Source: Algoriphagus machipongonensis (GTDB taxonomy: Bacteria > Bacteroidota > Bacteroidia > Cytophagales > Cyclobacteriaceae). Taken from it: a stretch of DNA of 64,000 nucleotides. The DNA is taken from contig NZ_CM001023.1 in the NCBI RefSeq assembly GCF_000166275.1, positions 2,049,001 through 2,113,000 on the forward strand, given 5' to 3'. The translations under genes and the position numbers were made by a program. This document shows, piece after piece, positions 6,375 through 64,000 of this stretch. Under the pieces are notes generated by a model that saw only the letters and a list, made by a program, of their open reading frames with translations, had not been told where the DNA came from and searched no databases. Position 1 is the first letter of the stretch. Every line of letters begins with the position of its first letter.

Positions 6375-6393
6375 TGAGTACCTTTGTTACTCA
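6375..6393 (+). promoter_or_regulatory. Promoter with overlapping palindromic operator, unit 1
   Basis: TGAGTA (6375-6380) and TACTCA (6388-6393) form a perfect 6-bp inverted repeat separated by 7 bp. The repeat contains TACCTTTG (6379-6386), a TAnnTTTG -7 box. A weak TTG lies at 6353-6355, somewhat far for a -33 box. Transcription should begin near 6391-6395, about 20 nt before the regulator ATG at 6414. The same arrangement recurs at 23751-23769; over 23 bp the two sites differ at three positions. The overlap of palindrome and -7 box fits repression. Confidence 0.75.
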
Positions 6394-6413
6394 CTATTAA
6401 AAGTGGATTTTTT

Positions 6414-6932
6414 ATGCTTGAATCCTTAATTACTTCAAAAACACGATTAAGACTTTTGGTTAAGTTTTTTGTCAACTCCAATACGCACAGTCATTTGAGA
6501 GGATTGGCAGATGAATTTGGTGAGTCAACCAATGCCATTCGAAAAGAATTAAATAACCTAACTCAAGCGGGAATACTGGAAAGGCATTCTGATAAGAATA
6601 AAATTGAATACCAAGCAAATATTAAGCACCCATTCTTTTCTAATATCCAAGAAATCATTCGTAAGTATTTGGGCTTGGACAAATTGCTGGAGCAGATATT
6701 GGATAGAATGGGAGAAGTGAATCAAGTGATCTTGGTAGGTGATATGGCAAAAGGTATTGACTCTGGGAAAATTGATGTGATCGTATCAGGTGATAGTTTG
6801 AATAGTGAATACATCAATCACCTGACGACAAGGGTAGAAGACTTGATTGAAAGAAAAGTGGTATTCACCTTGCTTGGAGAGAGAGTGACTTCTCCAGGTT
6901 TGGTGTTGTTTGATAAAGAAACGGGAATATAA
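6414..6932 (+). CDS. Winged helix-turn-helix regulator with C-terminal nucleotidyltransferase-like domain
   Basis: The 172-residue product has a winged helix-turn-helix at about residues 5-70; the probable recognition helix is ESTNAIRKELNNL. The C-terminal half (about 103-150) contains GDMAKGIDSGKIDVIVSG, which resembles a minimal nucleotidyltransferase fold without its full metal-binding Asp pair. The start was set at ATG 6414 because a longer reading frame would begin with TTG at 6384, inside the promoter box. Similar proteins are frequent beside Bacteroidota exopolysaccharide loci. Its position right behind the palindromic operator suggests autoregulation, and the second copy of that operator suggests control of unit 2. 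DNA binding is inferred, not shown. Confidence 0.8.
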   Translation: MLESLITSKTRLRLLVKFFVNSNTHSHLRGLADEFGESTNAIRKELNNLTQAGILERHSDKNKIEYQANIKHPFFSNIQEIIRKYLGLDKLLEQILDRMGEVNQVILVGDMAKGIDSGKIDVIVSGDSLNSEYINHLTTRVEDLIERKVVFTLLGERVTSPGLVLFDKETGI

Positions 6933-6969
6933 TTTCCTATAAATAATGTTCAATTCATAAGCGCAAAAT

Positions 6970-6992
6970 TGTGACTGAAAGGGCGAAGCTGT
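6970..6992 (+). promoter_or_regulatory. Conserved 23-nt leader element, copy 1 (ops/JUMPstart-like candidate)
   Basis: This sequence, containing the core GAAAGGGCGAAGCTGT, lies in the 103-bp gap between the regulator and the SLBB export gene. It recurs at 23899-23921 with a single mismatch (22 of 23). No other copy was noticed. The GGCGAAGC part resembles the E. coli ops core GGCGGTAGC and could form the same tiny GC-closed hairpin. It is proposed as a recruitment site for a NusG-family antiterminator; this is inference. An apparent GTG start at 6991 falls inside the element and is unlikely to be used. Confidence 0.65.
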
Positions 6993-7035
6993 GCACAGAG
7001 GTCTTGAATTAAAAAAAAATATTGCAAATTACTTT

Positions 7036-9693
7036 ATGGTAAATACTGAAAACACGTATAATCCTGACTTGATTAAAGCAGTTTCTTATTGGGATGTTTT
7101 TCGAAAGACTGGGCTGGTTTTTTTGTTTTTTCTAATAAGCTTAATAGCGCAGGCTCAGAGTTTATCTGATATTCAAAATCTTAGAGTAGACGATTTATCA
7201 GATGCTCAGCTAGAGCAATTGCTAAAAAGAGCTGAAGCAAATGGTTTGACTGTTAATCAGTTAGAGGCATTGGCAAGAGAAAGGGGCATGCCGGCAGTCG
7301 AAGCTGCTAAGCTTAGGCAGCGAATCAATGAATTGCAAATGACTGTGACTCCACAAAATGGAGAAGTTCCAGTTGGGTCAGGAAGATCGGTAAATGGGCT
7401 GGATGGCAGAGACATGTTTGATTCTATTCGAAGATCAGATCCATACTATGATCTCACTCCTACTCAAAAGAAGATTTTCGGCTATAAATTATTTCATAAT
7501 AGAGAATTGGATTTTAGTCCGAGTCTAAATTTACCTACTCCACAATCTTATGTAATCGGTGCAGACGACCAATTATTAATTGATGTTTACGGTGCTTCCC
7601 AGCAGTCATTTGATTTAAATGTGTCCCCTGAAGGTAGAGTGTTTTTGCCCAATATTGGGCCAATTCAGGTGGGAGGTTCAACAATTGAGGCAGCTACTGC
7701 AAGGATAAAAAGTTCTTTAGGAAGAATTTATTCGGGTTTAAATGGATCTAACCCAAACACATTTCTTCAAGTTCGTCTAGGAAATATCAGGTCAATTAAG
7801 GTGACGATGGTTGGAGAGTTAACAAAACCCGGAACCTATACGGTACCATCATTTGCGACAGTATTCAATGGCTTATATGCAGCTGGAGGTCCAAATGAAA
7901 ATGGCGCATTCCGGAATATCCAAGTTTATAGAGATAATAGATTGGTAGCCACAGTAGATATTTATGAGTTCTTATCTAAAGGGGAGCAAGGATCAAATAT
8001 CACATTGCAGGATAATGATGTAATCATCGTACCTCCTGTGCAAGCAAGAGTAGAAGTGATTGGTCCTGTAAGGAGAGAAGGCTTATTTGAAGTTAAGCCG
8101 GGTGAGCATTTAGATGATTTATATATCTATACTGGGGGGTTTGCCAGTCTTGCCTATACGGATCGTGTGACCATTAGAAGGATTGATGAAAATCAACGCA
8201 AAATACTTGATGTTTCTTCAGATCAGTTTGATAGCTTTTCCCTTGAAGATGGAGATGAAATATTAATTGGAGAAGCCTTAGATCGATTTAGCAACAGGGT
8301 TCAGATTACTGGTGCGGTAAATCGTCCTGGAGAGTATTCATTTGACGACGGTAAGCTCACGGTAAAAGGTCTATTGGAAAAAGCTCAAGGAGTCAAGCCT
8401 GAAGCTTTTACGAATAGAGCTACACTATATAGAACCAGTACAGATTTAACCTTGGGTGCAGAAACTTTAGATCTAAAAGGAATCTTAGAAGGTACAGCTG
8501 ATGATATTGTTCTGAAAAATGAGGATTTATTATTCATTCCTAGCAGATATGATATTCAAGAAGAATACTATGTTAAAATCTCAGGTGAAATAAATTCTCC
8601 AGGATCTTACCCCTTTGCATCTCAAATGACTGTGGGAGATCTCATTTTGAGATCTGGAGGTTTGTTAGAATCTGCTACAAATTCTTCTATTGAAATAGCC
8701 AGAAGAGTTAGGAATGCAGCTCCAGGAAAAATGGCTGAAATCAAAACCATTTCCATTGACCCAAACCTTCAATTGACGGCAGAAGAGAAAAATTTACCTT
8801 TAGAACCTTTTGATCATGTTTTCATTAGAAGGAGCCCAGGATTTGAAAGAGAACAAATAGTATCCCTTCAGGGTGAAGTTGTTTATCCAGGTGAGTTTGC
8901 CATATCAACGGCAAATGAGAGAATTTCAGATGTGATAAAAAGAGCTGGGGGACTTACAAATTTTGCCTATCCTAAGGGAGCGACTTTGATCCGGAGAACA
9001 GTATATTTTAAGGGGCCTACAGAAAAGGAATTGAAAGAGGAAACTTTAAAAGAAGTTCAGGAAAATCTTAATCCTGAAAAAAATAGAAGCATCAATGAAG
9101 CAGAGGGTCTTTTATATGAAAGAGTTTCGACAAAGCTTTCAAAAGCGGAACAGGAAAGAATGTTAAAAGAACAGGAAAAAGAACGCAATTTACTTTTCGA
9201 ATCTTCCAGTCCACGTGATACTTTATTTCAAGACTCGACTTTGAATGAAGTTAGGATTTCTGAACAGGATCTGGTGGGTATAGACTTAGAAAAAATAATG
9301 GCAAATCCTGGCTCTAAAGAAGATTTGTTTTTGATGGAAGGAGACATTATTCAGATTCCTAAAGAATTACAGACTGTAAGAATGGTTGGTGAGGTGCTTT
9401 TACCTACCACCAGTAGATACGATAAGAAAAACAGTCTAAAAAACTACATTTCAAAAGCGGGTGGCTTCTCTGAAGAGGCAAGAAAATCTAAAACCTATGT
9501 GGTTTATGCCAATGGTGATGCCAAGAGAACTCACAATTTCCTAGGTTTTCATTTCTATCCAGAGTTGGAGCCAGGAGCTGAAATTGTAGTACCCAAAAAA
9601 CCCAGAAGAAATAGACTTAATGCAGCAGGCTGGATAGGGTTAGCCTCTAGTTTAGCCACACTTGGGATCCTTGTGGATCGATTATTACAATAA
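7036..9693 (+). CDS. Multi-SLBB polysaccharide export protein (Wza-type, extended)
   Basis: From the ATG at 7036 the protein has 885 residues. It has a signal segment (hydrophobic stretch ending ISLIAQAQ), a helical N-terminal region, and a Poly_export domain around YVIGADDQLLIDVYG. Six SLBB-type repeats follow, each beginning with a pattern such as KVTMVGELTKPGTY, RVEVIGPV, RVQITGAV, YVKISGEI, IVSLQGEV and TVRMVGEV. A hydrophobic segment lies at the C terminus. It is much longer than E. coli Wza (about 380 residues) but typical of Bacteroidota. It should form the periplasmic/outer-membrane conduit for the polysaccharide made by unit 1, working with the Wzz-like protein at 16329. A GTG at 6991 would add 15 residues but overlaps the conserved leader element. 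Confidence 0.9.
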   Translation: MVNTENTYNPDLIKAVSYWDVFRKTGLVFLFFLISLIAQAQSLSDIQNLRVDDLSDAQLEQLLKRAEANGLTVNQLEALARERGMPAVEAAKLRQRINELQMTVTPQNGEVPVGSGRSVNGLDGRDMFDSIRRSDPYYDLTPTQKKIFGYKLFHNRELDFSPSLNLPTPQSYVIGADDQLLIDVYGASQQSFDLNVSPEGRVFLPNIGPIQVGGSTIEAATARIKSSLGRIYSGLNGSNPNTFLQVRLGNIRSIKVTMVGELTKPGTYTVPSFATVFNGLYAAGGPNENGAFRNIQVYRDNRLVATVDIYEFLSKGEQGSNITLQDNDVIIVPPVQARVEVIGPVRREGLFEVKPGEHLDDLYIYTGGFASLAYTDRVTIRRIDENQRKILDVSSDQFDSFSLEDGDEILIGEALDRFSNRVQITGAVNRPGEYSFDDGKLTVKGLLEKAQGVKPEAFTNRATLYRTSTDLTLGAETLDLKGILEGTADDIVLKNEDLLFIPSRYDIQEEYYVKISGEINSPGSYPFASQMTVGDLILRSGGLLESATNSSIEIARRVRNAAPGKMAEIKTISIDPNLQLTAEEKNLPLEPFDHVFIRRSPGFEREQIVSLQGEVVYPGEFAISTANERISDVIKRAGGLTNFAYPKGATLIRRTVYFKGPTEKELKEETLKEVQENLNPEKNRSINEAEGLLYERVSTKLSKAEQERMLKEQEKERNLLFESSSPRDTLFQDSTLNEVRISEQDLVGIDLEKIMANPGSKEDLFLMEGDIIQIPKELQTVRMVGEVLLPTTSRYDKKNSLKNYISKAGGFSEEARKSKTYVVYANGDAKRTHNFLGFHFYPELEPGAEIVVPKKPRRNRLNAAGWIGLASSLATLGILVDRLLQ

Positions 9694-21989: not shown

Positions 21990-23693
21990 TTGTTAGCTAA
22001 GAATTTCGGAAGAAAATTAACCTTGACAGCGCTGCTGTTCCAGGTTTCCTTTGTTGTTTTTTCTCAAATTCTTAATTCAGACATTCCTGTATTAGAGCAA
22101 TTTCTTCGTAGGGAACAATTGCTCGGATCATTTGATCCTAGCTATTCTTTTCAGTTAAGACCTTTCAGATTAGATGGTAGAGATTCTTCAATCACTTCAC
22201 AAACGATATCTAATTACCTGATAGGTAAATCAATGCCTAAAAACCCTAAGGTAAGGTTTAACTTGTTGCCTATTATTTCCACCACTGAAATAAATACAAA
22301 AAGACCCTACGGTTGGGGAAATAAAGGACTTGTTCCAAATGTAGGGGTTCAAACCTATTTCAGCACAGGTTTCTATGCAAGGTTTCACTTTTTAGAAATT
22401 CAATTTCAACCTGAAATGACCTATTCCCAGAACAAAGCATTCGAGGGGTTTTCAAATGATTTTTCCGGAAAGGTTTTAAGTGCTCGTTTTTTTTATTGGA
22501 ATAATGGTGATAATCCAGAACGTTTTGGGAAAGATCCAATTTCTCGTTTATGGTGGGGACAGTCAAGTATAAATATTTTGGCTGGACCTATTCAATTTGG
22601 TATTTCAACAGAAAACATTTGGTGGGGGCCAGGCCAGTTCAATTCACTCACTTTTAGTGATAATGCAGAAGGTTTTCCTCATTTATCCTTAAAATCCCGC
22701 AGACCACTTAAGACTTTTATGGGGAATTTTGAGTCAGAGGTGATTATAGGTAGGCTTGAGAATAGTGGCTTATTTCCTTCTCAAGATGCCTTCTTAAATC
22801 AGCGGTATTTCCGAAAATTTGATGGAGACTGGAGATACTTAAATGCTCTTCATATCACCTACAATCCTTCGTTTTTGCCTAATTTATTTTTAGGCTTTAA
22901 TAGAACTTTCCAGCAGTACAATAAATATAGAGAGAAAACCTTCAATGATTATTTCCCGATTTTTGAAGTGTTTCAGAAAAAGACATTATTTGAAAATGGT
23001 AACTCTGTGGTCTATGATGGAAAAGGTCAAGATCAACAAGTCTCACTTTCTATTCGATATTTGGTTCCTAAAGCAAATGTTGAAGTTTATGCAGAATTGG
23101 GGAGAAGGGACCATGCTTATGACTGGCGAGACTTTATCTTAAACCCCGAGCATGCCAGAGCATATCTTTTTGGGTTACAGAAATTATTCCCACTTCCGGA
23201 GCAAGATACCTACATACAAGTGCGAGCGGAAATGACGCATCAGCAGGAGTCTATCAATAGATATAATAGATATCCAGGGTTGATAGGCAACCAAACCTGG
23301 CATACCCATGGGTTGGCAAGGGGCTTTGTAAATGAAGGAGAAGCTTTAGGCGTAGGAGTAGGGGTAGGATCCAATGTTCAAACTATCGAAATTTCCAAAG
23401 TTTCAAAAATGAATAAAAGGGGCATTCTTCTGGAAAGATTAGCCAATAATCAAGATTTTTTTTATCGGGCATTTGGTCAAAATCCTGAGAAAAAACCATG
23501 GGTGGATTTGAGCTTGGGGTTTTTGTGGGATGAGCAGTTTGGCAGGCTAATACTTAGTGGTAAAGCACAGTTTATCAAAGGTTTCAACTATCAATGGCAG
23601 TCTGATAATCTGAGTACTTCCGATTACCCAAATGGCAAAAATAATTTTTCCTTTTTTGGAAATTTTAGCCTGATCTATCAATTACAGAAATAG
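21990..23693 (+). CDS. Capsule assembly Wzi-family outer-membrane protein
   Basis: A 567-residue protein with an N-terminal signal peptide (hydrophobic LTLTALLFQVSFVVFSQ, cleavage likely near SQ). The rest is rich in aromatic-ended beta-strands, as expected for the 18-stranded Wzi barrel. The motif FGISTENIWWGPGQFNSLTF is characteristic of this family, and the protein ends in a strand with aromatic residues (FSLIYQLQK). Wzi proteins bind capsular polysaccharide at the cell surface. The start is TTG at 21990. This is the last gene of unit 1, so that polysaccharide is probably a surface-held capsule rather than released slime. Confidence 0.85.
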   Translation: MLAKNFGRKLTLTALLFQVSFVVFSQILNSDIPVLEQFLRREQLLGSFDPSYSFQLRPFRLDGRDSSITSQTISNYLIGKSMPKNPKVRFNLLPIISTTEINTKRPYGWGNKGLVPNVGVQTYFSTGFYARFHFLEIQFQPEMTYSQNKAFEGFSNDFSGKVLSARFFYWNNGDNPERFGKDPISRLWWGQSSINILAGPIQFGISTENIWWGPGQFNSLTFSDNAEGFPHLSLKSRRPLKTFMGNFESEVIIGRLENSGLFPSQDAFLNQRYFRKFDGDWRYLNALHITYNPSFLPNLFLGFNRTFQQYNKYREKTFNDYFPIFEVFQKKTLFENGNSVVYDGKGQDQQVSLSIRYLVPKANVEVYAELGRRDHAYDWRDFILNPEHARAYLFGLQKLFPLPEQDTYIQVRAEMTHQQESINRYNRYPGLIGNQTWHTHGLARGFVNEGEALGVGVGVGSNVQTIEISKVSKMNKRGILLERLANNQDFFYRAFGQNPEKKPWVDLSLGFLWDEQFGRLILSGKAQFIKGFNYQWQSDNLSTSDYPNGKNNFSFFGNFSLIYQLQK

Positions 23694-23732: not shown

Positions 23733-23769
23733 TTTGCAATCAAATTCAAATGAGTAACTTTGGTACTCA
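23733..23769 (+). promoter_or_regulatory. Promoter with palindromic operator, unit 2
   Basis: A TTTG -33 box (23733-23736) is followed after 18 bp by TAACTTTG (23755-23762), a TAnnTTTG -7 box. The -7 box lies inside the perfect inverted repeat TGAGTA-N7-TACTCA (23751-23769), whose arms extend to 8 bp here (AATGAGTA/TACTCATT). It is the second copy of the site at 6375-6393. Transcription from here would give a leader of about 225 nt before the gene at 23997. Confidence 0.8.
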
Positions 23770-23898
23770 TTTAGTATTAAGTGCCAACAAAATACTTTTT
23801 CAAGGCGGTATAAGCAGCTTTTTGAATCTGAAAAAAGACATCAAAATTGACTCCCTTTGAAAAAATACAGAGCTACTAGTTTTGTTTCGCTGGGTTTA

Positions 23899-23921
23899 TG
23901 TGACCGAAAGGGCGAAGCTGT
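23899..23921 (+). promoter_or_regulatory. Conserved 23-nt leader element, copy 2 (ops/JUMPstart-like candidate)
   Basis: It is identical to 6970-6992 except for C in place of T at the sixth position. It lies about 130 nt downstream of the expected transcription start of unit 2 and 75 nt before the first gene. The rest of the leader (23770-23898 and 23922-23996) shows no reading frame and no strong hairpin that I can see. Placement in the transcribed leader of a 34-kb operon fits a transcription elongation signal. Confidence 0.65.
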
Positions 23922-58057: not shown

Positions 58058-58344
58058 GTGTCTACTTGGCTTATTAATTGACTAAATAAAAAGCTTTAAT
58101 TAATTCGATTTTCTACAATTAGAAAAAGAAGTTTAGAATACTTAAAAAAGGGGACAAAATTCCCTTACTTTGGATGGTAAAAGATTAATTTTATACATCA
58201 AAGGCGTAAAACAGCTGATGAATGTGTGAAATAAGAGGAACGAAAGCCTTGGGTGGAATGATTGTTGCTTTTTGGCTGCATTAGACCAAAGTTCTTCAAA
58301 TTATAGAGCAGATTTACGAATTGATTCATACTCGATCATATAAG
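58058..58344. other. Intergenic region before the adhesin gene
   Basis: About 290 bp without a reading frame of note. TTACTTTG at 58165-58172 resembles but does not fully match a TAnnTTTG box, and no -33 box is clear. No copy of the palindromic operator or of the 23-nt element was found here, so the adhesin gene is probably controlled separately. Confidence 0.5.
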
Positions 58345-61300
58345 ATGTTTTTCCAAGAGGAAAACAAAGCGATGTTACTTTGTATCAAAGTATTCCTGCT
58401 TTGTGTATTCTTATTTTTATCTGTCAAACCATCTTTTTCCCAAACTATCCCAAGAGCAGGCTTTCCGTATTGTGAAGGGTTTTTGAATCCACAATCTGAC
58501 GATCCAAATAATATTCGCTTTACTGTTGCAAAAGGAGATAAAGTGAATTATGGTGCAAATTCTACTGTGACATTTAATCCAAGAGATATAAAATTTACAG
58601 GGAATGGAATTCGACTAGTTGAATCAGAAGATAACCTAAGAGGATATCTTTTTGTTGATTTGCCCTTTTCTCCTACATATGGAATTAAAACTTCTTTTGA
58701 ATATTTTATTCATACTCCTTCTGCTTATGGTTTAGGAGATGGGTTTAGCTTCTTTTTATTTGATGGAGATATTGATGCAAGTACTTTTGAAATTGGTGGT
58801 GTAGGAGGAAGTTTGAGTTATGCGCCTCACGGAGGAAATAATAGTGGTAACCCGTTTTCAGGAACTTATAATTATACATCGGGTGGATTAAAGGGAGGCT
58901 ACTTAGGAATTGGTTTTGATGTTCTCGGTAATTTCGGGAATTTCCAGGAAAAGAAATTTGGGGGTTTTCATAACCCAGATCAATTCAATTTTAGTACTCC
59001 AAATGATGAAATTCGATTTTACCCAAATGCAATTACAATTAGGGGACCTGTTGATCCTGCAGATTTAACTCGTCAAAATGGCAACCCACCTCCAATCATA
59101 GATACTACCAATCCAACTTATGATAGCTATCAATTTGTGGATGGAGGAATAGTAAATTATGACCCTTCATATACTTACCCGATTCCATATATTGATGATA
59201 GGGCAAAGAATGGTTCAGGTGATTTGTACAATAACCCAACAACCAAATCAGAATATTTTTTGCCAGACAGTGAGATGTTTAATCTTGGGTCAAATTTAGT
59301 GCCTTCAAATTTTAATTGTACTACTCGACCGATTGGTTATAGAAAGGTTTTTATTGATTTGGAGCCAACAAATAACCCCGCTGTACCTTATAGGATTTCG
59401 GTTTATATTTTAAAAGATAACGATCCAGCTCCAATAAAAATTCTTGATTCTGTAAACTACCCTTATCCAATTGCGGCAGATGCTACTTTGAAATTGGGTT
59501 TTGCTGCATCAACGGGCGGTAGTTTTTATAGTGCGATTGATATTAGAAATGTGGCTGCTTTGGTTTCAAGTGTTGGCGATGATAAGAAACCCACGCCACC
59601 AGAGTTATTTAAAGAAATATGTGTTGAGGATCAAGATCAAGTTGAATTTCCTTTTTGCGTGACTCTAGCAGATCAAAATACCTTTATCCAGTGTATTCAA
59701 TTAATGGATGATTTTGAAGCTGCAGATAATGACTTCTCTGATGACTTTTTTAATTGTGAGCAACCAGGTTTCTGTAACCAAAGATGTCTGGATGGCTTGA
59801 AATTATTAGAAGTATTCGATGAAAATAATGACTTGATAGGTACCTTTAAAGCTGATTTAAGTGATAATGTTAATGTAGGAGAGTTTAATGAGGCTAATAT
59901 TATTTTTGAAAGAAATCCAGCATCAACTTTTTATGGAACTATCACTAAATACTATAAAGTGGTTGATAACTTCGGTCTGGAATCAGATGCGATTCCAATC
60001 ACAATAACCATTAACCCAAAACCAAGAATTGTTTTTGAGGGAACACCAACAGATCCTACTTGCGGAGGACAACTTGACGGATCATTGATTGGGGTAGAAA
60101 TTGATAGATTATCTGACGATTTTATTATTGAATTTTATGATGGTTCTGGTAACCCAGTCAATTTTACCCAAACTAATTTGGTTGAAGGTGCAGATAAGTA
60201 TTTCACTGCTACTTATGATTTAACAGGATTAGATTTAGGTCAGATTTTCGTAAGAGCTACAAACCCAAGTTCAGCAACATTAGGGCCCGTTTGTGATGTG
60301 AATAATGTGCCAGATCCCAATCCCTGCTTGTTGGAAGATGAATTGGTTTATGAATTTACCCAAGTTAGAGGTACTCCCGTAGAGCTCAATCCTTACGATG
60401 ATATTATTTGTGAAGGAAATGATGCTACGGTTAGTCCTTCTGTAGACCCTGTTTTTAATCCGAATGGTTTAGATGTGCCATTTAGGTGGTATACTGATGA
60501 AAATGGAAGTAATGAAATATTATCTGGGAATGCCACCATCGACGGAACACCTGTAACTGTTGATATTGCAAATGATGGTACACTCACTGTCACAGGACTA
60601 ACAGCCGATGGACTGAATCCCAAAACTTATTCCTTCTATGTTGAAACTGATTTTCAGGATAATGGAGCAGGTATAGGGAATTTTTGTCCTTATGTGGGTA
60701 CAGTAACATCTATAGCAACATTTACTGTTTACCCTGCCATAGACATTCAGATCGTGGAAACCCCAGATTGGTGTAGGGAAGGCGCTGGATCTATTCAAGT
60801 TACTGCACAAGGTGGGACAGGAAATAAGGAGTTTTTCCTTTATGAAACAGGAAATGCAAGCCCAATACAACAAAGTGGTAGTATTCCAGCAGATAACTAT
60901 ACTTTCTCAGGCTTATTGCCTGGAGATTATGAAGTGGAAGTTCTTACACAAAATCCAAATTGTACAAACCTTGTCTCACCAATAACTATTGAGGGGCCAG
61001 CAGAAAGTTTAAGTTTAACTCCTGGAAGTATTACAGAAGAATTTTGTGACTTACAAAATGGAGCATTGGAATTTACTCTTACGGGAGGAAATATGCCTTA
61101 TAATTCGATAAGTGTAGGAGGAGTAGATATAAATACCTTAGATTTTACTCAATCTGGAGACACTTATTCAGTCACAGGCCTTACAGGACAGACTTATTCT
61201 ATTGAGGTAGTCGATGCTCAAGGTTGCCCAGTTAGCATATCAATGGATGTTCCAAAAGAGGATCCGTCTGAATTTGGTACCATACCTGATGAGATATGTG

Positions 61301-64000
61301 AGGGCCAAACTGCCACCGTACAAGCAGATATTATTAACCAATCTAGTTCTACGCCTACCTTTAATTGGTTTGCTTCCGATGGGGCAGGAGGGTATCAGCA
61401 AATTACTACGGGTTCTAATTTTGATGGTGGATCATTTACATTTGACGCCGCGACAAACTCCATGTCAGTAGCTGGTTTGGCTGCTTCTAATACCCCGTAC
61501 ACTTATTATCTTCAAGTAACGGGACCAAAAGTTTGTGATCAAAGTTACCTGCCAGTAGAAATATTAGTGAATTTCGGTCCAGAAATGGATGACCCTTCCT
61601 TGACCATGGTGACCTGCTTTGGAGGAAGTGATGGAACAATCCAAGCCTCAATACCTTCAGGAATCATTGCTGATTTTGAGTTTAGTCTTCTGGGAGATAA
61701 TGGTGTAGATAGACCCTTTGCAGCTAATAATGGCCTTTTTGAAGATCTTTTACCCGGCAACTACACATTGACTATACGAAATGCTGAAGGTTGTTTTTCC
61801 ACCAAGGATAATTTAGTGATTTCTGAGCCTACCGAAATTCAAATTCAAACGGTAAATACCATCGATCCAACTTGTGGAGAGAATAATGGAGTTTGGAATT
61901 TTACGATTGCAGATGGTACCCCTGACGCTAATGGAGAATATGTAATCAGTATTGATGGAACTCCGCTCGCTTCTTTAAGTGCTGATTTGACGGTAAATGC
62001 TACCAATGATTTTACAATTTCAAATCTTTCTCCCGGTATACATACAGTAAGTGTAACTGATGATAATGGTTGTCCAATGGAGGCCACTGTAGATTTGGTT
62101 GCCCAACCTATACCTGTATTTGAAACAAATGATGTGACGATTTGTGAGAATGATTCATTCGCTACTCTTTCTCCTATTATCGTTGATCCAGCAGGCTCAA
62201 GTCCTGTGTTTACATGGGCTTACGAGGATACTGCAAACCCTGGGACTTACATTGATATCAATAATAATGATGTAATCAATGGAGCTACCCATACTTTAGT
62301 AGGGGATGATCTTCAAATTGAAGGTTTATCAAATGCTGATTCTCCTTATCAATATTTTCTAAAAGTTTCTGGGAATCTGGTTTGCCCTGAAGCTCCAATT
62401 CCTGCTCAGGTTTCAGTGTTAAAATTGCCTGAAGTAGTTTTTGAATCTGAACCTACTTCTTGCTTTGAAGGAAATGATGGTAAGATCAGTCTTATTTCCA
62501 GTGACCCTGATGTCAATATGACTTATACTTTGGTGGAAACTGGGGAGAGTAATCCTACTGGGAATTTTGTTGGACTTTCTGCTGGTACTTACACAGTTGT
62601 TGCCCAAGAAAATGGAGCCCCATGTGATAATCAATTTACTGTTGAGGTTACTCAGCCAGAGGAACTGCAGTTATTAAATGAATCTAAAATTGACCCAACT
62701 TGTGATGCAGATAATGGCTCCATTTCTTTTGATATTATTGGAGGTACTCCAGAATATGAGGTAGAAATCAATGGTAGTTCAATTGATACCTTTGATCATA
62801 GTGTCACTGGAGATACTTATGAAATTAAAAAACTAGCCCCTGGAACATACTCCATTTCTATTCTTGATGCCAATGGTTGTCCATTAGATAGACCGGATTT
62901 ATTTACACTAGTAAATGATGCTGGAATTGATGTCACTATAGATCCTATTGCCGAAGAAATTTGTGAAGGCCAAGAAGTTACTTTAACGCCTGTTTTCCAA
63001 GCCACGCCACCAGTAACACCAACTTTGAATTGGTATAAAGATCAAGCTTTATCAGAATCAATTACATCCAATGCTACTGCTGATGCAGATGGTTTAATTT
63101 ATCAAATATCAAATGGAGCACTGACTGTCTCAAACCTTCCAGCTGGAGATTACACGTATTATCTTGAAATTTCAGGTCCTGGAATTTGTACTTCCGTCGA
63201 AGAAGTATTAGTGACAGTATATCCAGAATTAAGGGCTGATATAGTGGTGACAAATGAAACATGTTTCCAAGCGTCAGATGGAACCATCACTGCAAACCCA
63301 TTAGGTGGAAATGGGAATTATGAATTCAGTTTTAATGGCTCAACATTCTCAAATGTGAACTCATGGACTGATTTAGCCCCTGGTACTTACACAATATCCA
63401 TAAGAAATGATATCGGTTGTACTTATACTGAGGATGTGGAAATAGTAGGTCCTTCGGCTCCAATACAAGTCAATACTCCTTCTTTTATCAGAAGTTCATG
63501 TAATTTGGACAATGGAAGTATTGAAGACTTGGTGATAACTGGAGGCACTCCTGATTATGCAATCGAATGGAGAAAAGGAAGTGCTACGGGCACTGTAGTG
63601 CCAGGTGACGAAACAGGAGCAAGCAATTTGGCTCCCGACACTTATTTCTTAATCGTATCAGATCTTGCGGGCTGTTCAGAGACTTTCACTTTTGAAGTAG
63701 AGGCTTCCTCTGACCCTGTCTATGATATTGTTCCACCGATTAACGAATGTTCAGGAAGCCCAGTGCTTATTCAGCCTGTTCATTTAGCTCCTGATCCTAG
63801 TTTGCCACCAGCAGCTGCTACAGAAGTCAAATGGTACAAATCTGCCGGCCAAGTGGATGAGATCAGTGATGGTGCAGATGCTGTAAATCCTGATGTTGTT
63901 TATACCATTGATGATTCTGATTGGATAAACCCAGAGTTGACCATCGAAGGATTACCCGCAGGCCAATACACCTATTACTTCTTTGTGGTTTGTACTGGTC
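58345..64000 (+). CDS. Giant secreted adhesin: L-type lectin-like domain plus Ig-like/SprB repeats (3' end outside window)
   Basis: The frame is open from ATG 58345 (or 58372) to the window edge, 1885 codons, without a stop. A signal peptide (LLCVFLFLSVKPSFSQ) leads into a lectin-like domain (about residues 35-230) with GLGDGFSFFLFDGD and GYLGIGFDVLGNFGNF, as in L-type lectins. From about residue 687 a module of one Ig-like domain (start patterns such as EICEGQ) and two SprB-type repeats (CFGGSDGTI...LAPGTYTI...GC) occurs four times, with a fifth Ig-like domain begun at about 1799. Family knowledge predicts type IX secretion and a C-terminal sorting domain, not visible here. It may bind glycans at the surface. 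Confidence 0.88.
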   Translation, partial: MFFQEENKAMLLCIKVFLLCVFLFLSVKPSFSQTIPRAGFPYCEGFLNPQSDDPNNIRFTVAKGDKVNYGANSTVTFNPRDIKFTGNGIRLVESEDNLRGYLFVDLPFSPTYGIKTSFEYFIHTPSAYGLGDGFSFFLFDGDIDASTFEIGGVGGSLSYAPHGGNNSGNPFSGTYNYTSGGLKGGYLGIGFDVLGNFGNFQEKKFGGFHNPDQFNFSTPNDEIRFYPNAITIRGPVDPADLTRQNGNPPPIIDTTNPTYDSYQFVDGGIVNYDPSYTYPIPYIDDRAKNGSGDLYNNPTTKSEYFLPDSEMFNLGSNLVPSNFNCTTRPIGYRKVFIDLEPTNNPAVPYRISVYILKDNDPAPIKILDSVNYPYPIAADATLKLGFAASTGGSFYSAIDIRNVAALVSSVGDDKKPTPPELFKEICVEDQDQVEFPFCVTLADQNTFIQCIQLMDDFEAADNDFSDDFFNCEQPGFCNQRCLDGLKLLEVFDENNDLIGTFKADLSDNVNVGEFNEANIIFERNPASTFYGTITKYYKVVDNFGLESDAIPITITINPKPRIVFEGTPTDPTCGGQLDGSLIGVEIDRLSDDFIIEFYDGSGNPVNFTQTNLVEGADKYFTATYDLTGLDLGQIFVRATNPSSATLGPVCDVNNVPDPNPCLLEDELVYEFTQVRGTPVELNPYDDIICEGNDATVSPSVDPVFNPNGLDVPFRWYTDENGSNEILSGNATIDGTPVTVDIANDGTLTVTGLTADGLNPKTYSFYVETDFQDNGAGIGNFCPYVGTVTSIATFTVYPAIDIQIVETPDWCREGAGSIQVTAQGGTGNKEFFLYETGNASPIQQSGSIPADNYTFSGLLPGDYEVEVLTQNPNCTNLVSPITIEGPAESLSLTPGSITEEFCDLQNGALEFTLTGGNMPYNSISVGGVDINTLDFTQSGDTYSVTGLTGQTYSIEVVDAQGCPVSISMDVPKEDPSEFGTIPDEICEGQTATVQADIINQSSSTPTFNWFASDGAGGYQQITTGSNFDGGSFTFDAATNSMSVAGLAASNTPYTYYLQVTGPKVCDQSYLPVEILVNFGPEMDDPSLTMVTCFGGSDGTIQASIPSGIIADFEFSLLGDNGVDRPFAANNGLFEDLLPGNYTLTIRNAEGCFSTKDNLVISEPTEIQIQTVNTIDPTCGENNGVWNFTIADGTPDANGEYVISIDGTPLASLSADLTVNATNDFTISNLSPGIHTVSVTDDNGCPMEATVDLVAQPIPVFETNDVTICENDSFATLSPIIVDPAGSSPVFTWAYEDTANPGTYIDINNNDVINGATHTLVGDDLQIEGLSNADSPYQYFLKVSGNLVCPEAPIPAQVSVLKLPEVVFESEPTSCFEGNDGKISLISSDPDVNMTYTLVETGESNPTGNFVGLSAGTYTVVAQENGAPCDNQFTVEVTQPEELQLLNESKIDPTCDADNGSISFDIIGGTPEYEVEINGSSIDTFDHSVTGDTYEIKKLAPGTYSISILDANGCPLDRPDLFTLVNDAGIDVTIDPIAEEICEGQEVTLTPVFQATPPVTPTLNWYKDQALSESITSNATADADGLIYQISNGALTVSNLPAGDYTYYLEISGPGICTSVEEVLVTVYPELRADIVVTNETCFQASDGTITANPLGGNGNYEFSFNGSTFSNVNSWTDLAPGTYTISIRNDIGCTYTEDVEIVGPSAPIQVNTPSFIRSSCNLDNGSIEDLVITGGTPDYAIEWRKGSATGTVVPGDETGASNLAPDTYFLIVSDLAGCSETFTFEVEASSDPVYDIVPPINECSGSPVLIQPVHLAPDPSLPPAAATEVKWYKSAGQVDEISDGADAVNPDVVYTIDDSDWINPELTIEGLPAGQYTYYFFVVCTG
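60406..64000 (+). repeat. Protein-level tandem supermodule (Ig-like + SprB-a + SprB-b)
   Basis: Ig-like domains start near 60406, 61291, 62137, 62953 and 63742, giving periods of about 885, 846, 816 and 789 bp. Between them SprB-like repeats alternate between a CF-x-GSDG type and a C-x3-NG type. The DNA itself is diverged, so this is old duplication rather than a recent array. Confidence 0.75.

Follow-up and report, generated by a model that had tools for sequence, protein, structure and literature searches.

A conserved element ahead of exopolysaccharide operons of Algoriphagus machipongonensis as a probable recruitment and pause signal for a UpxY-family NusG paralogue

Genes, element copies and promoter candidates of the locus

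The window, i.e. the whole stretch of 64,000 nucleotides of the Algoriphagus machipongonensis genome that was analysed, contains two runs of large ORFs on the forward strand. A winged-helix regulator gene (6414–6932, + strand; ORF 6384–6932, likely ATG at 6414), the product of which matches Pfam HTH_DeoR with 21.6 bits (cut-off 21), is followed by an SLBB/Poly_export gene (7036–9693, + strand; ORF 6991–9693, likely ATG at 7036), the first large gene of a same-strand run that extends to position 23693. The second, long run of large ORFs (23997–58008, + strand) was searched for protein families in its first nine ORFs and includes genes of a nucleotide-sugar dehydrogenase, Poly_export, a GNVR/AAA kinase-like protein, an ABC transporter, a glycosyltransferase and others. 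Behind this second glycan unit, an ORF of at least 1893 codons (58321–63999) runs off the end of the window.

Each run is preceded by one copy of a 23-nt element, TGTGACTGAAAGGGCGAAGCTGT at 6970–6992 and TGTGACCGAAAGGGCGAAGCTGT at 23899–23921, both on the + strand and identical in 22 of 23 bases. The duplication reported in the preliminary description is real: a search with the 23-mer at up to three mismatches gave no further match in the window and none across 100 dinucleotide shuffles. For the 16-base core alone, also with up to three mismatches, at least two matches were reached in 5 of 100 shuffles. Copy 1 follows directly upon the winged-helix gene, 37 nt past the end of its 182-aa ORF and 43 nt upstream of the likely ATG of the SLBB/Poly_export gene. 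Copy 2 is located 136 nt downstream of a TAACTTTG box (23755–23762) and 75 nt upstream of the first ORF (23997). Both copies had been described as leader DNA; this holds for copy 2, but copy 1 is better termed intercistronic, with the promoter candidate of its unit, TACCTTTG (6379–6386), preceding the winged-helix gene. A terminator scan of both leaders yielded one terminator-like site, at 6872–6899 inside the winged-helix gene, and none in the second stretch.

Both promoter candidates lie within palindromes. The first, the 17-bp GAGTACCTTTGTTACTC (6376–6392), holds TACCTTTG and is a possible promoter or operator of the copy 1 unit; the second, GAGTAACTTTGGTACTC (23752–23768), holds TAACTTTG and has the same possible role in the second unit. 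The pattern GAGTA-N7-TACTC has two sites in the window, one before each copy, and none of 100 shuffles reached two. In 60 element loci of the family, introduced below, such a palindrome with a spacer of 3–10 occurs within 300 nt upstream in 26, compared with 0 of 60 in the stretch 1000–1300 nt downstream and one in 160 kb of random regions. The palindromes sometimes stand in tandem, 19 bp apart. Both window palindromes and 11 of the 32 palindromes of the 60 loci contain TANNTTTG; within 350 nt upstream of the 60 elements this box occurs 30 times in sense and 18 times in antisense orientation, and TTG-N17-21-TANNTTTG occurs 15 times vs none in antisense. The box TACCTTTG is presumed to be of the Bacteroidota −7 type, and a sigma-70 scan of both leaders gave promoter-like sites not above shuffles. 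We read the boxes and palindromes as putative promoters, some of them with an overlapping operator, and, so read, they place the element downstream of the transcription start. It is possible that the palindrome is the operator of a regulator shared by these operons, for which the winged-helix protein is a candidate.

The whole genome (4.79 Mb, a single contig) was searched with the 23-mer at up to three mismatches and with a reversed control pattern. Five copies were found, all on the + strand and within 174 kb (2.056, 2.073, 2.126, 2.142 and 2.230 Mb), and the control had zero matches genome-wide; this nonrandom placement, with 5/5 on one strand, agrees with the preliminary view of a defined site. 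The 13-base core GAAAGGGCGAAGC is exact at these five copies only, and with one mismatch it has two further genomic matches vs three control matches. A chance origin is ruled out by the shuffles of the 23-mer and by this genome-wide core search. The flanks of the five copies are unrelated (mean identity of 29% on both sides vs 92% in the 19-base core), which rules out a recent duplication of a longer stretch. The 332-aa ORF after the third copy reads, by its sequence, as a mannose-1-phosphate guanylyltransferase; the first ORFs after copies 4 and 5 are less clear, a reverse-strand 136-aa ORF precedes the first forward gene of copy 4, and copy 5 ends in CCA. A plasmid search with copy 1 gave no match.

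Distribution, gene context and architecture of the element

The pattern GACTGAAAGGGCGAAGCTG with up to two mismatches is present in 57 of 117 relatives (the genome under study, 54 of 70 congeners and 2 of 46 others), and its reversed control in 9 of 117. At the family level, the pattern was found in 103 of 295 genomes and 37 of 84 genera, against 13 of 295 genomes for the reversed control, and 32 of 395 genomes of the phylum contain GACTGANNGGGCGAAGCTG with one mismatch (control 7). The 16 of 70 congeners without the pattern are all drafts of 2.2–2.8 Mb, and all possess the NusG paralogue described below; of these 16, G049 (E 5e-6) and, with a weak match, G005 (E 0.02) were found to have the element when searched with a sequence model. 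An exact scan of genome contigs revealed at least 118 stretches carrying the element, two of them identical. The genera among the 80 matches listed include Algoriphagus, which is the commonest named genus (19 of 80), Echinicola, Cyclobacterium, Belliella, Pedobacter, Mucilaginibacter, Marinifilum, Lacihabitans and Marivirga; listed matches also come from bins labelled Acidobacteriaceae, Omnitrophota, Tectomicrobia and Chlorobiota, which may be misassigned. In three loci (L197, L258 and L208), from bins labelled Acidobacteriaceae and Omnitrophota, the element adjoins UpxY-type genes, the bin labels suggesting a spread of element and UpxY beyond Bacteroidota.

Among the variants of the element are GANNGGG as opposed to GANNTGG, and GTAACTGA. 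The two middle bases look free, because one genus prefers GACTGACCGGGCGAAGCTG or GACTGACGGGGCGAAGCTG, and the base before GGCGAAGC may be variable as well, to judge from recurrent mismatches such as GACTGACGTGGCGAAGCTG. Three tandem copies about 157 nt apart (C11:199610, 199766 and 199924) were observed in the congener G048. In locus L005, a degenerate second copy, TGGGACTGAAAAAGCGGACCTGCC, lies about 50 nt upstream of the element, and many short CAGT-type repeats lie downstream.

The gene context was compared in 60 fetched copies, 20 from the genus and 40 from other genera of the family, picked from both match lists. No ORF of at least 80 aa spans the element in these copies, save one that starts at a GTG within the element, which rules out coding sequence as its identity. 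In 60/60 copies the next ORF of 150 aa or more has the strand of the element, vs 10/20 random regions, and 302 of the 311 downstream ORFs of the 60 loci have this orientation. The first downstream ORFs (n = 60) match Poly_export (22), SLBB (20), UDPG_MGDP_dh (6), NTP_transferase (6) and Epimerase (5), and the second ones GNVR (14), UDPG_MGDP_dh (10), Wzz (10) and Epimerase (7). None of these families is among the 25 of 131 families listed for 60 random ORFs. The location ahead of glycan operons, predicted earlier, was encountered in this set: the 60 copies lie between ORFs and before same-strand runs rich in export and sugar-nucleotide genes. Besides, ORFs similar in size to that of the winged-helix protein, size being the only property compared, end 38–75 nt before the element in many relatives, and 8 of the 60 first downstream ORFs match PaaX/DUF7342.

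Of the 118 phylum-wide loci, 109 have an ORF of 120 aa or more downstream, and in all 109 it is on the strand of the element; seven of the 118 elements lie inside nominal ORFs, in four cases in antisense. One ORF from each of 103 of the 118 loci was searched with Pfam, UpxY-type ORFs being passed over, and these first ORFs match Poly_export in 24 of 103 cases, UDPG_MGDP_dh in 14, Asn_synthase in 12 (1 of 60 random ORFs) and NTP_transferase in 11.

Judged by its sequence, the signal is larger than first reported and consists of a variable stem-loop followed by GAnnGGGCGAAGCTG. The 23-nt element of the preliminary description is real, but its extent had to be revised, since the upstream stem-loop belongs to it and the core extends to GACTGANNGGGCGAAGCTG. 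In copy 1, the stem-loop (6960–6976, + strand) has the predicted pairs A6960-T6976, G6961-C6975, C6962-G6973, G6963-T6972 and C6964-G6971, A6974 being bulged. In copy 2, a short stem (23893–23905, + strand) has the pairs G23893-C23905, G23894-C23904 and T23895-A23903, and the T-to-C change in the element is matched by an upstream A-to-G change (columns 6-25: two G-C cells).

Pairing was evaluated in an alignment (A4) of 51 of the 53 copies having a T[AG][AG]G arm 11–18 nt upstream, out of 101 copies, columns 4 to 7 being selected and columns 8 to 10 unselected; this and the other tests of stem covariation leave sequence relatedness in. With the A of GAC bulged, four pairs of the stem-loop, which lies upstream of GACTGA, are standard in 96.4% of cells in the 51 selected copies; none of 500 shuffles was as high, and slid registers gave 4 to 60%. 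For one stem pair, both bases are changed in 17 cells. The mean pairing score of the unselected 101 copies, 9.15, was reached by 0 of 200 in either of two controls: shuffling the upstream sequence gave 6.69 (sd 0.23), and exchanging arms among the copies gave 8.29 (sd 0.20). In TGKGACT, the variable base pairs with the upstream sequence of its own copy better than the other possible base would in 75 vs 23 of 100 copies (2 ties), and in 77 vs 36 of 118 (5 ties) in the phylum set. A register without the bulged A (59.9% of cells paired vs 60.7% in shuffles) and a long-range GCT-AGC pairing (its helix paired in 41%) were rejected. No good stem was seen in L137, L138, L124 and L102 in the 101-copy pairing test, and the T[AG][AG]G arm is missing in the searched range in 33 of the 101 copies.

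The core contains GCGAAGC (6983–6989 in copy 1, + strand; 23912–23918 in copy 2), a putative mini-hairpin of the non-template DNA strand. Among 101 copies for which two mismatches were allowed, a single one departs from this heptamer (GCGGAGC). By the pause consensus, we take T6990 and G6991 to be positions −1 and +1 of a putative pause, with G6981 at −10. ViennaRNA with DNA parameters found no structure in two core oligonucleotides or in a scrambled one, and a weak hairpin in the ops core; our guess is that such triloops may lack parameters in the folding tool. GNA and GNNA loops on two G-C pairs are described as extraordinarily stable DNA mini-hairpins, and GCGAAGC as melting at 78 °C, with a sheared G-A pair (PMC4686876). 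The core GCGAAGC could form such a GNA mini-hairpin.

The UpxY-family paralogue and its linkage to the element

Two NusG-domain genes are present in the genome, a housekeeping one beside ribosomal protein genes and one for a 170-aa paralogue at 3.746 Mb. The latter, the only NusG paralogue found in the genome, matches Pfam NusG and is encoded 1.5 Mb from the elements (2.056–2.230 Mb). It scores 156 bits with the UpxY model NF033644 (cut-off 100) and stays below the other NCBIfam cut-offs (RfaH 55 of 144.5, NusG 50 of 135.7, LoaP 60 of 125); by the tested cut-off, it is a member of the UpxY family. A NusG paralogue of the kind that the preliminary description had in mind does exist, then, with 156 bits to NF033644. 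Its orthologues at 70–93% identity occur in 67 of 70 congeners, and a close orthologue (52% identity or more, the next value being 45%) occurs in 79 of 295 family genomes. The element with up to two mismatches is present in 62 of these 79 genomes vs 41 of the 216 others (Fisher p 6e-21, uncorrected for phylogeny); within the family, this co-occurrence could come from common descent alone. Seventeen of the 79 orthologue genomes have no match within two mismatches, and in part of them the sequence model gave chance-level matches only.

The paralogue is unlinked to the elements in the genome of the window, and the pairing of element and UpxY there therefore rests on other genera, where physical linkage to upxY is the best and strongest evidence for it. 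A UpxY/NusG-type ORF adjoins the element in 29 of 118 phylum-wide loci (each of at most 8 kb), always on the same strand; 24 of these ORFs end 36 to 1467 nt before GACT, and 5 start 18 to 222 nt after it. The NCBIfam scan covered 27 of the 29, two fragments being left out, and all 27 match NF033644 (best E 1e-49), the NusG model giving 9e-13 at best. The linked loci come from Pedobacter, Lacihabitans, Marivirga, Marinifilum, Ancylomarina, Mangrovibacterium, Mariniphaga, a Cesiribacteraceae species and several bins. The idea that a NusG-like UpxY factor acts at a defined site, raised in the preliminary description, gains support from this frequent adjacency.

By coordinates compared by eye, at least 16 genomes have element and UpxY on one strand and no more than 1.1 kb apart (G319, G303, G230, G231, G344, G171, G144, G181, G173, G237, G099, G472, G529, G513, G638 and G666), some of the element matches being weak (E 0.02 in G144) and some species possibly overlapping the 118 loci. 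They are near but divergent in G260 (1.0 kb) and in G369 and G165 (1.7 kb). UpxY was counted, by eye and with E-values presumed above the cut-off, in 28 of 32 element-bearing phylum genomes vs 210 of 395 overall; the element-bearing genomes without UpxY (G401, G411, G541 and G628) have one one-mismatch match each.

The UpxY protein from a Pedobacter locus (L191) was modelled with AlphaFold2 as an NGN domain and a beta KOW (mean pLDDT 84, pTM 0.67), the KOW having a pLDDT of ~68–82 in the one predicted state. The top structural matches of the model are NusG and RfaH chains, and its NGN superposes on RfaH of the ops-paused complex (8pen_P) with an rmsd of 1.6 over 98 columns. The KOW of RfaH is alpha-helical and autoinhibiting, and that of this related UpxY was modelled as beta; a single state leaves switching possible.

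Proposed mode of action and relation to known systems

On the observed sequence, conservation, orientation, gene contexts, stem covariation and upxY linkage, the element is probably, at about 0.8, a transcribed recruitment and pause signal for the UpxY-family NusG paralogue. We infer the following course of pausing, DNA hairpin formation, UpxY binding and antitermination. RNA polymerase would transcribe the leader, a small RNA stem-loop would form behind it, and the polymerase would pause near the GCT of the core and the G that follows. GCGAAGC in the displaced non-template strand would fold as a GNA mini-hairpin; the NGN domain of UpxY would recognise this hairpin together with the paused polymerase. 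UpxY would then stay on the polymerase and aid its passage through the very long capsule/exopolysaccharide operon, and, in the genome under study, a single unlinked UpxY would act in trans on all five copies, in the manner of RfaH; the latter is described as a single factor acting in trans on several operons (PMC7593976).

The ops/JUMPstart system of E. coli with RfaH (RF01707) is found in the leaders of O-antigen and colanic-acid operons, where RF01707 matches precede rfbB and wza. The E. coli JUMPstart has a 5-bp stem-loop, then GGGCGGTAGCGTG, or GGGCGGUAGCGUG in its consensus; the layout of the element, a stem-loop and then GGGCGAAGCTG, is alike, but with a 4-nt spacer and another core. In the genome under study, an RF01707 search that scored 150 of 991 candidates gave two matches at E up to 10, the best with 15.6 bits (cut-off 35) and neither at the element, and the window contains no match. 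A known Rfam family as its identity was rejected, there being no RF01707 match at the elements. The ops sequence GGCGGTAGCGTG does not occur in the element, the core of which is GGCGAAGCTG; GGCGGTAGC was found as expected in the E. coli yardstick. On the present reading, the element would work like ops/JUMPstart with RfaH; it is neither JUMPstart by the Rfam model nor ops by sequence.

The ops hairpin is described with the pairs G2:C9 and C3:G8 and a Saenger XI G4:A7 pair, RfaH contacting the loop bases G5 and T6 (PMC11001881). By the designs so described, ops and the element both have a stem of two GC pairs on which a sheared G-A pair closes the loop, and on our own reading they would be a GNNA and a GNA hairpin of the same build. 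The preliminary description compared the element with the ops core by sequence; what matters functionally is more likely GCGAAGC as a GNA hairpin than a match base by base. The element is unlike ops/JUMPstart in its GNA triloop instead of GNNA, in the 4-nt GANN spacer after the stem and in its partner of the UpxY family instead of RfaH.

The partner family NF033644 is common to the present system and to UpxY/UpxZ of Bacteroides. Saba et al. (2024) reportedly found that, at a pause to which hairpins in the nascent RNA contribute, UpxY recognises the non-template strand and the upstream DNA duplex. Bacteroides UpxY is described as providing leader-acting antitermination for long capsule operons (PMC7819879). 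B. fragilis is described as having eight UpxY encoded within the operons they activate; another two, as yet uncharacterised, may work in the way of RfaH (PMC7593976). Unlike in this system, the gene of the paralogue lies outside its putative target operons, one unlinked protein facing five copies of one shared sequence, and that sequence recurs across families. In other genera, gene and element are adjacent. LoaP with dfn is likewise described as a specialised NusG that targets long operons by way of a hairpin in the leader (PMC12691694); unlike LoaP, the paralogue has only 60 bits with the LoaP model, below the cut-off of 125.

Since RNA and non-template DNA share the same letters, the sequence cannot decide whether the signal is read as RNA, i.e. 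whether the stem-loop and GAnnGGGCGAAGCUG are bound by UpxY or another factor with the DNA strand playing no part. Such recognition of RNA seems rather unlikely. It would agree with the sense-orientation U-G wobbles and the covariation of the stem, with the absence of a core hairpin from the output of the DNA folding tool, and with LoaP, which is described as acting via an RNA hairpin without a discernible pause (PMC12691694). However, the least variable part of the signal is GCGAAGC and not the stem, and this heptamer suits a DNA mini-hairpin. A much smaller likelihood attaches to a double-stranded operator of a transcription regulator, for instance of the winged-helix protein before copy 1: the orientation fixed in 60/60 and 109/109 loci, the position after the promoter candidates and the lack of an extended palindrome in the element, as judged by eye, speak against it, and the separate palindromic site is the better operator candidate, even though ORFs of winged-helix type and size are frequent neighbours. 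That the element is a functionless repeat, mobile or duplicated passively, as its several copies per genome and the three copies ~157 nt apart in G048 might suggest, is hardly credible beside the unrelated flanks, the fixed strand, the placement before ORFs, the nearly invariant core over many genera and the upxY linkage.

A broader interpretation can be put forward tentatively, with slightly less than an even chance of being right. An RNA stem-loop and a GNA DNA mini-hairpin would form one phylum-wide code, the common UpxY loading site in Bacteroidota and some other phyla. The Cyclobacteriaceae would have a trans-acting, RfaH-like exopolysaccharide regulon, the locus-specific UpxY/UpxZ of Bacteroides would be a later specialisation, and JUMPstart/ops (GNNA) and the present signal (GNA) would be two versions of one architecture.

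The sources consulted report the action of UpxY in gut Bacteroides and its relatives and name no common recognition site, and the literature searched, which excluded most subscription papers, contained no title describing this site. With a site that can be searched for, UpxY targets could be predicted from the sequences of many environmental genomes. The element, with one loop base fewer, offers a clean comparison with ops, and the DNA-hairpin model becomes testable in a second phylum. For Algoriphagus, Pedobacter and their kin, the element provides a handle on the regulation of exopolysaccharides.
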